A stretch of DNA of 53,508 nucleotides from a virus. Location of the stretch: the IMG/VR virus record IMGVR_UViG_3300006028_000005, positions 1 through 53,508 of that record; one strand, written 5' to 3'. Positions 1 to 2,318 of this stretch are shown here, piece by piece; position 1 is the stretch's first letter; every line of letters begins with the position of its first letter. The notes beneath the pieces were generated by a model. It did no database searches and was not told the DNA's origin. It saw only the letters and a program-made list of their open reading frames with translations. The position numbers and the translations under genes were made by a program.

Positions 1-30
1 AGAATTTATCACAACCATGAAAAATGGGAA
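1..30. repeat. 30-bp terminal direct repeat (left copy)
   Basis: The first 30 bases are identical to bases 53479-53508. A reading frame that starts at 53473 runs through the repeat into the gene ending at 591, so the two ends join to make an intact gene. The simplest reading is a circular assembly with 30 bp of overlap (unique length 53478 bp). A true short terminal repeat is less likely. Confidence 0.95.
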
Positions 31-591
31 GATTTGGGAATGTGGTTTAAACGACCGTTCGACCTGCAAGCTGCAATAGATTTTACCGGAAATACAGAAT
101 TATATGGCGAATATATGTGGCGTGTAATTTGCCAATGGCCTTTAACTTGCGAACACAACCTGACAGCTAATGGTAACAGGCAAGCTTGGTTAGGTCATGC
201 AGCCGCATATATGGCAATACAAGCCCCTGAATCAGTTACCCGTAAAGCGTGGAGTTTCTTAACAGAAATACAGCGAATTGAAGCAGATAAAAAAGCCGCT
301 GAATGTATTGAAACATGGGAATGGCAGCACAACCATAGTCTAGGTGTTAAGTCTGTGAGTGGCCCGTATATTGACGCTTATTTAAAACGCGATTACGATT
401 ACATACCGGATGAATTGCCAGGCTCATTACAGGATTTGGCACCGGCTTATAAATTTATTTGCGCGGCAATTCTTAAAAACGATCTACATCTATCATCATT
501 AGGATACTCAAAACCAAAATCAGAATATTACTCACTTTTAAAGAAAATAGAAATAGATGAACGTTTACGAAGCAAGCAACAACCGGCTTAA
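1..591 (+). CDS. DUF3440-like companion of the PAPS-reductase-like protein (5' end at 53473)
   Basis: The protein is about 197 residues once the junction is closed. The ATG at 53473 adds a short N-terminus in the same frame, and there is no ATG nearer than codon 14 of the window. The last 45 residues (AILKNDLHLSSLGYSKPKSE region) align by eye with the C-terminus of the next protein (CILKNDHLMKYAGFSLTKNE), which is the C-terminal part of IbrA/DUF3440 proteins. The N-terminal 140 residues are not recognised and carry no nucleotide-loop motif. The gene overlaps the next by 35 nt, so the two are probably translated together. A role as accessory subunit of the IbrA/IbrB pair is inferred. Confidence 0.75.
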   Translation, partial: RIYHNHEKWEDLGMWFKRPFDLQAAIDFTGNTELYGEYMWRVICQWPLTCEHNLTANGNRQAWLGHAAAYMAIQAPESVTRKAWSFLTEIQRIEADKKAAECIETWEWQHNHSLGVKSVSGPYIDAYLKRDYDYIPDELPGSLQDLAPAYKFICAAILKNDLHLSSLGYSKPKSEYYSLLKKIEIDERLRSKQQPA

Positions 592-1822
592 ATACATATT
601 TGATAATTTCGATAACGTTTACTTATCGTTTAGCGGCGGTAAGGATTCCGGTGTAATGTTAAATCTTACTATTGATTGGATGCGTAATAATGTTCCTGGT
701 AGAACGTTGGGAATTTTCCACTTGGATTATGAATGTCAGTACACCATGACTACTGAATACGTAAACAAAACCCTTTCTGAAAATACAGATATTTTGGATA
801 TTTACCGGGTGTGCGTACCTTTTAAGGTAACAACCTGTACATCTATGACCGAAAGCTATTGGAGACCATGGGATGAAAGCAAGCGCGAATTATGGGTATC
901 CCCTATGCCTGAAAATTCCAAAACGTATTTTTCATTTTATGATGAAGAAATGTGGGATTATGAATTTCAGGAAAAATTTTCACTTTGGTATCATAAAATT
1001 AAAGGCTCAAAACGAACCGCTTGCTTAGTCGGTATCAGGACACAGGAGTCTTTAAACAGGTGGAGGGCTATTCATTCAGACAGAAATTATAATAATTTCA
1101 TGGGCAAGGATTGGACTAAAAAAATGTATAATAACGTTTTTAACTGTTACCCTATTTTCGATTGGACTACACAAGATATTTGGACAGCTAACGGTAAGTT
1201 TGGTTGGGATTACAATAAGCTGTATGATGTGATGTACCAGGCTGGAATACCAATAGATCAACAACGGGTTGCGTCTCCATTCATAAGTACCGCAATATCT
1301 TCACTTAAAATGTATAAGGTCATAGAGCCTAAAACATGGGGTAAACTTATAGGCCGCGTCAACGGCGTTAACTTCGCCGGTTTATATGGCGGTACTACCG
1401 CTATGGGTTGGCAATCAATAAAGTTACCACCGGGTCATACATGGAAATCTTATATGTTTTTTTTGCTTGATACATTACCGAAAAATACCGCTGATAATTA
1501 CCGCGCAAAACTTTCTGTATCACAGGAATTTTGGCGTACTAAAGGTGGCTGTTTGTCAAATGAAGTAACTGATAAATTAGTTTCAATGGATGTTCCCATA
1601 ACAATACAGCCAGCAGGAAATTACAAAACTGACAAGCTGCCTGTAACGATGGAGTATTTAGATGATTGCGATATTAAAGAGTTTACACAGATACCTACTT
1701 ATAAAAGGATGTGTATTTGCATCCTAAAGAACGATCACCTGATGAAGTACGCAGGTTTTTCACTAACAAAAAATGAAGAAATTTACAGACAAAGAATATT
1801 AAAAAGATATGAGCAACTTTAA
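557..1822 (+). CDS. IbrA-like phosphoadenosine phosphosulfate reductase-family protein (DUF3440)
   Basis: The 421-residue protein has the PP-loop SFSGGKDS at residues 24-31, used in this family to bind and activate ATP or PAPS. A large aromatic-rich middle follows, and a DUF3440-like C-terminus lies at about residues 375-421. E. coli IbrA and YbdN have the same build and length. The family resembles DndC but its reaction is not established. The stop overlaps the start of a ParB-like gene by 14 nt, the same pairing as ibrA-ibrB. ibrAB was named for control of prophage eib genes. A role in DNA modification or gene control is inference. The family call is firm, the function is not. Confidence 0.88.
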   Translation: MNVYEASNNRLKYIFDNFDNVYLSFSGGKDSGVMLNLTIDWMRNNVPGRTLGIFHLDYECQYTMTTEYVNKTLSENTDILDIYRVCVPFKVTTCTSMTESYWRPWDESKRELWVSPMPENSKTYFSFYDEEMWDYEFQEKFSLWYHKIKGSKRTACLVGIRTQESLNRWRAIHSDRNYNNFMGKDWTKKMYNNVFNCYPIFDWTTQDIWTANGKFGWDYNKLYDVMYQAGIPIDQQRVASPFISTAISSLKMYKVIEPKTWGKLIGRVNGVNFAGLYGGTTAMGWQSIKLPPGHTWKSYMFFLLDTLPKNTADNYRAKLSVSQEFWRTKGGCLSNEVTDKLVSMDVPITIQPAGNYKTDKLPVTMEYLDDCDIKEFTQIPTYKRMCICILKNDHLMKYAGFSLTKNEEIYRQRILKRYEQL

Positions 1823-2318
1823 AAGTCCGGTTTACAATGTTATCGCTGTTCCAATTGATGAAATACAGGCAAACAGCTATAACCCTAACAGTATACCAAC
1901 CCCTGAAATGAACCTGTTAGAGGTGTCAATTTGGGAGGATGGTTATACGATGCCAATAGTTTGTTATCGCCTTGAAAATGGCAAATATGAGGTTGTAGAT
2001 GGGTATCATAGGTTAACAACTATGCGACAATCAAAACGCATATTCGACCGGGAAAACGGGCTTTTGCCAGTGGTTGTGATTGATAAAGATGAAGCTAACC
2101 GTATGGCCTCAACAATACGCCATAACCGGGCACGTGGTAATCACTCAATTGAGCTAATGAGTAATATAGTGGTGGAGTTAACTCAATCTGGTATGAGCGA
2201 TGCCTGGATATTAAAACATATTGGTATGGATGCAGATGAACTAAACCGACTTAAGCAAATAACCGGTTTAGCTTCACTTTGGGCGAATAATGAATTTAGT
2301 GAAACTAATTACAACTGA
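1809..2318 (+). CDS. IbrB-like ParB/Sulfiredoxin-fold protein
   Basis: The 169-residue protein has a ParB N-terminal-type domain, with the conserved VDGYHR motif at residues 63-68 and a following RHNRARG segment near residue 100. The C-terminal 50 residues are helical and probably bind DNA. Partition ParB proteins are much longer. The size and position directly after the PAPS-reductase-like gene (14-nt overlap) match IbrB. No ParA gene is present, so a partition role is unlikely. The pair probably acts together on DNA or nucleotides, which is inferred from the conserved pairing. Confidence 0.85.
   Translation: MSNFKSPVYNVIAVPIDEIQANSYNPNSIPTPEMNLLEVSIWEDGYTMPIVCYRLENGKYEVVDGYHRLTTMRQSKRIFDRENGLLPVVVIDKDEANRMASTIRHNRARGNHSIELMSNIVVELTQSGMSDAWILKHIGMDADELNRLKQITGLASLWANNEFSETNYN

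Follow-up and report, generated by a model that had tools for sequence, protein, structure and literature searches.

The left end of the window, which is an entire virus record of 53,508 bases, carries IbrA and IbrB together with an upstream gene that joins a helical domain, X, to a homologue of the IbrA C-terminal tail, Y, and X–Y–IbrA–IbrB is a real module. Judging from sequence comparison, there is about an even chance that this locus is an X–Y form of IbrA–IbrB in which X–Y would be an adaptor that brings the predicted enzyme to a nucleic-acid target, replacing the role of an SNF2-type helicase. Three overlapping open reading frames (ORFs) lie on the + strand at 1–591 (open on the left), 557–1822 and 1809–2318, encoding, in this order, the X–Y fusion (gene 1), IbrA and IbrB. 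ORFs and domain matches confirmed what an earlier, sequence-only reading had described here: three overlapping genes, one of them PAPS-reductase-like with SFSGGKDS and one ParB-like with VDGYHR. The overlap between the IbrA and IbrB genes is 14 bases. The start of gene 1 was inferred from its closest relative (locus L003), which reads MLRIYHNH.. where the window reads RIYHNH.., so that Met-Leu precedes the window's first residue there. The features are:

1–591, + strand: gene 1, X–Y fusion protein; the contig end cuts its 5′ end, about 2 codons missing
1–366, + strand: X domain, residues 1–122; an all-helical family, not DUF3440
367–588, + strand: Y domain, residues 123–196; by profile comparison a stand-alone homologue of the IbrA C-terminal tail
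557–1822, + strand: IbrA, 421 aa; PP-loop/PAPS-reductase-like domain plus DUF3440
626–649, + strand: PP-loop SFSGGKDS of IbrA, residues 24–31; sequence motif
1661–1813, + strand: IbrA tail, residues 369–419; by profile comparison homologous to Y
1809–2318, + strand: IbrB, 169 aa; ParB/sulfiredoxin-fold protein (ParB_N, phrog_2159)
1995–2012, + strand: VDGYHR motif of IbrB; sequence motif

The second protein matched PAPS_reduct (E = 3.3e-14) and DUF3440 (E = 4e-84), both above cut-off, which identifies it as IbrA; its neighbour is an adjacent ParB-like IbrB, with a ParB_N match barely above cut-off (E = 6.6e-6) and a phrog_2159 match at E = 1.5e-74. A PP-loop and DUF3440 IbrA followed by a ParB-like IbrB is also the arrangement of the known IbrA/IbrB pairs (E. 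coli ibrAB and ybdNM, and phage copies), but these are described as two genes, whereas the window adds the upstream X–Y fusion gene. The papers found give no explanation of IbrA/IbrB; X, an X–Y partner and the SNF2 exchange were likewise not described in the sources searched, mostly those outside subscription journals. ParA was not named among the first 25 families listed for the window. Downstream of IbrB, positions 2481–2708 encode a small helix-turn-helix protein, with a weak HTH_3 match slightly below cut-off.

The sequence-only reading had further claimed that gene 1 and IbrA share a C-terminus and had proposed a profile comparison of the two. The claim holds: BLASTP aligned the C-termini with E = 1e-5, and a profile of 17 Y domains matched 25 IbrA tails significantly in hhalign (69 columns, P = 99.5%, E = 3.7e-22), as did the window's Y alone against the IbrA-tail profile (E = 3.9e-10). 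Both share the pattern PD..........PSWK.....ILKND....LG, and their predicted helices come in the same order in the two structure models. By these comparisons Y, which makes up the C-terminal ∼70 residues of the gene 1 protein, is homologous to the IbrA tail, far past chance. Against DUF3440 (PF11922) itself, gene 1 residues 135–175 matched positions 139–179 of 182 (E = 5e-4) with 20.4 bits, below the curated cut-off of 25, so that gene 1 is not a member of the family although it is tail-homologous by profile comparison. The description of gene 1 as a DUF3440-like protein is thus accurate for its C-terminal ∼70 residues, whereas residues 1–122 form the separate family X; likewise, the idea of an accessory protein made of the DUF3440-like tail applies to the last third of gene 1, most of which is an unrelated helical domain. 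As the last third alone matches, we rejected gene 1 as a DUF3440 protein. We also rejected, as a general rule, that Y is a recent copy of the tail of its own IbrA, because 50 of 51 Y domains scored better against tails from the X-only IbrA clade than against the short tails of the IbrA proteins beside which Y domains occur, and because the Y domains group together on the tail tree (support 83; a weak tree, built on 73 columns). For the window's Y the margin was small, 33.9 versus 28.2 bits. The alignment that places Y rows on the IbrA tail (A7) was left out of folding.

X had no match in Pfam, NCBIfam or PHROG. The AlphaFold model of gene 1 (92 rows) showed X as helical, with pLDDT mostly 96–98 over residues 1–100 and about 92 over residues 101–110, falling thereafter into a loose linker that leads to a moderately well predicted Y. 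The X model had no fold match in the PDB (best E = 1.8) and a single match below 1e-3 in a viral structure library, the unnamed A0A649V0K8 (116 residues, 40% identity); on these results we rejected a known fold for X. No DNA-binding signature was found in X, and its median pI is 6.5. Among loci fetched by IbrA only, most relatives of gene 1 come as a pair of overlapping ORFs, one for X (about 120 residues) and one for Y (about 70 residues); the fused X–Y form was found solely in the window and its close relative L003.

A virus-contig search with X alone returned at least 545 relatives among at least 600 stretches. In 79 of the 80 X-fetched loci kept, IbrA and/or IbrB (A and B in the orders below) lay beside X on the same strand, and the contig of the single exception ends inside X. 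The gene orders in these 80 loci were ABXY (48), BXA (11), XAB (7), XYAB (5), BXY (3) and BXYA (3), plus singles, and AXYB occurs among loci fetched with IbrA; the X and Y genes overlapped or abutted in 152/152 pairs. Where X occurs without a separate Y, either IbrA carries a full-length Y-type tail, as in Amjad_SA and Mwe-JY13, or Y is joined to the IbrA N-terminus while IbrA keeps its own tail. The latter applies to three cases (L163, L235 and L249, the last from a metagenome-assembled genome); Y was poorly predicted in the model of this fusion (pLDDT near 50). The remaining two X loci that lack a separate Y, L031 and L152, are both cut at a contig end. Since X and Y are fused in some loci and Y and IbrA in others, contact between X, Y and IbrA is the simplest reading. 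It is the 79/80 linkage, the Y-type-tail rule and the Y–IbrA fusions that make X–Y–IbrA–IbrB a module, probably a complex held by the tail domains. The variable gene order could also fit an X–Y that is an unrelated neighbour, travelling with IbrA–IbrB owing to compact phage early regions, but we disfavour this as highly improbable: the linkage spans very different phages (Mycobacterium, Pseudoalteromonas, Pseudomonas and Microcystis) and comes with at least five gene orders, overlapping genes, a domain in common and two kinds of fusion.

The sequence-only reading had also suggested a count of genome contexts and would have been refuted by absence of gene 1 from all other IbrA–IbrB loci, but the count found its relatives beside the pair: X was present in 46 of 80 IbrA-fetched phage loci when the set was broad and in 57 of 80 when it was close. 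Given the significant C-terminal match and the presence of gene 1 relatives in over half of the sampled loci, an accessory subunit that bears the IbrA tail as a protein of its own is real and widespread. Outside viruses, X was found in 3 of 84,980 prokaryote species genomes, with IbrA adjoining in all 3, in a search whose narrower alignment could miss divergent X; in 388 sampled genomes of one phylum, DUF3440 occurred in 18 and X in the seed genome only, and plasmids gave no match to X. X is therefore close to phage-only, an undescribed family that stands always or almost always beside IbrA and/or IbrB. Among isolates, X was detected only in Gaia and Nebkiss (Mycobacterium), XCL1123 (Pseudoalteromonas), Amjad_SA (Pseudomonas) and Mwe-JY13 (Microcystis), and all have IbrA. 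Gaia and Nebkiss are temperate, and Gaia integrates (PMC10865867); X is therefore not confined to lytic phages, a restriction that we rejected, and the lack of an integrase to which the sequence-only reading had pointed does not characterize the module. In Gaia, the module is flanked by genes for a polymerase/primase, an exonuclease and a helicase, and in Mwe-JY13 it stands ahead of YqaJ and RecT genes.

X and an SNF2-type helicase nearly exclude each other. In a neighbour census of 80 non-redundant loci (IbrA <75% identity), the helicase was present in 26 of 35 X-negative versus 0 of 45 X-positive loci; directly upstream of IbrA, in non-redundant loci with complete flanks, the counts were 19/28 versus 0/31 (Fisher p = 5e-9, a value that overstates the case because the loci are not independent). 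Over all 249 loci it was found in 40 of 61 X-negative versus 1 of 188 X-positive ones, that one downstream and not adjacent. About one third of X-negative loci have neither X nor SNF2, and a lenient search of X-negative loci for divergent X gave nothing convincing, so we rejected the idea that one had been missed there. SNF2 and XY states interleave on the IbrA tree, with at least six and at least five changes forced by well supported branches; the exclusion is clustered on this tree, and of the 6 pairs in an independent-pairs test, too few for significance, 4 were opposite and 0 the same (p = 0.125). In a small sample of bacterial genomes, 4 IbrA loci had the helicase upstream, and the seed's locus was the only one with X. 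We observed SNF2 genes upstream of IbrA, with X absent, in L004–L006, L171, L172, L174 and L178–L182, and further in L184–L186, L188, L190–L192 and others; the IbrA–IbrB copies of Streptococcus phage PY3 and Lactobacillus phage AQ113 also have one upstream. X(–Y) and SNF2 may thus be interchangeable targeting subunits of a putative ATP-using, DNA-directed IbrA–IbrB enzyme. The earlier suggestion that the accessory subunit sets target or substrate fits this exchange, from which we infer it.

The PP-loop residues F25, S26, G28, K29, D30 and S31 of IbrA were invariant across aligned relatives, and a DGxHR-type motif was kept in 240 of 246 IbrB matches. Among 54 aligned IbrA rows, C86 was the only near-invariant cysteine; we detected neither a conserved CysH-type C-terminal catalytic cysteine (ECG[I/L]H) nor an iron-sulphur cysteine set. 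Because the PP-loop is invariant while the reductase cysteine and the iron-sulphur set are absent, IbrA more probably adenylates a substrate than reduces sulphate or transfers sulphur in the manner of DndC. The solved structures nearest to the IbrA model were CysH (PAPS reductase), CysD (ATP sulfurylase), FAD synthase, TilS and tRNA thiolases. These fold relatives act on the ATP alpha-phosphate or a related nucleotide. CysH shares the fold of the PP-loop domain, but IbrA differs from this sulfonucleotide reductase in the catalytic cysteine and in carrying DUF3440. The DNA phosphorothioation systems with DndC/DndB (Dnd), SspD and BrxP likewise have a PP-loop PAPS-reductase-like enzyme, and in Dnd the DndC-type enzyme has a ParB-superfamily partner, DndB (PMC10853773, PMC12839542). 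The window's IbrA differs from these systems in its cysteines and has other accessory proteins; no DndA/DndD/DndE-like partners were identified at the IbrA–IbrB locus, and IbrA scored 18.2 bits against TIGR03183 (cut-off 290) and so falls outside the DndC family. PADLOC returned weak DndC and BrxP matches for IbrA (DndC at 9e-6 over a short stretch) and none for gene 1 or IbrB, so a defence family was rejected for the latter two; nothing supports the anti-defence role that had been raised.

Several further genes accompany IbrA and IbrB in relatives. In many X-positive loci an ectoine-synthase-like cupin (PF06339) stands beside IbrB or is joined to it: it lies between IbrA and IbrB in L007 (3020–3508) and L083 (4069–4461) and forms the IbrB N-terminus in L010 (6281–7231). 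A GNAT acetyltransferase-like gene occurs in or beside the module in L006 (6751–7251), L197, L237 and L248. These variable neighbours look like decorating enzymes. Upstream of tail-less IbrA relatives (about 393–408 aa) lies a second IbrB-like gene in L070, L073, L074, L075, L078 and L081, and a short PAPS-reductase-like paralogue in L070, L075 and L082. A thiamine-pyrophosphate enzyme gene adjoins chromosomal full-tail IbrA in two genomes (L285, 2301–4187; L286, 6197–8149, − strand); these two cases were treated as unrelated to the module.

To our knowledge, the only experimental claim in the literature is that IbrA/IbrB activate transcription in E. coli. Phage records annotate the pair as co-activators of prophage gene expression, two papers use the same term (PMC4490671, PMC8813620), and E. 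coli ybdNM is under CitR regulation (PMC9068703). The pair might accordingly be a transcriptional co-activator of phage or host genes, with X–Y contacting a promoter or RNA polymerase, but we consider this unlikely, as the catalytic-looking conserved PP-loop and DGxHR motif, the exchangeable SNF2 helicase and the cupin and GNAT neighbours are more in keeping with an enzyme than with a simple activator. If the module is an enzyme, its substrate could be RNA (tRNA) or a small metabolite recognized by X–Y: the fold relatives include the tRNA-modifying TilS, NcsA and TtuA as well as the metabolite enzymes CysD and FAD synthase, and the ectoine-synthase-like cupin is frequent at X loci. The alternative partner, an SNF2-type helicase, belongs to a class that acts on double-stranded DNA, and we regard an RNA or metabolite substrate as rather improbable. 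DNA would be the likeliest target, given the SNF2 exchange and the replication and recombination neighbours in Gaia and Mwe-JY13.

For the adaptor reading of the window, we propose that IbrA may be an ATP-pyrophosphatase-type PP-loop enzyme that most likely activates its substrate by adenylation, with IbrB as a putative ParB/sulfiredoxin-fold nucleotide-handling partner. In gene 1, the predicted adaptor, Y as a copy of the IbrA tail would dock on IbrA, and the helical X domain would supply the target contact, so that X(–Y) would do the job of the upstream SNF2-type helicase elsewhere: it would deliver the enzyme to a nucleic-acid target, most likely DNA, early in infection. All parts would then act as one complex, with X as its targeting part and a modification reaction as its output.

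IbrA/IbrB and DUF3440 are widespread and unexplained, and with the X–Y partner, the rule linking X to a Y-type tail and the SNF2 exchange, what was an orphan pair becomes a system whose parts can be tested. As Gaia and Nebkiss infect the laboratory strain Mycobacterium smegmatis mc2 155, direct testing is possible. More tentatively, and with rather less than even confidence, IbrA–IbrB may be a modular phage nucleic-acid-modifying enzyme with exchangeable targeting subunits, either an SNF2 helicase or X, the latter linked to the enzyme by a detached copy of its tail; if this is true, X would be the founding member of a new target-recognition family.
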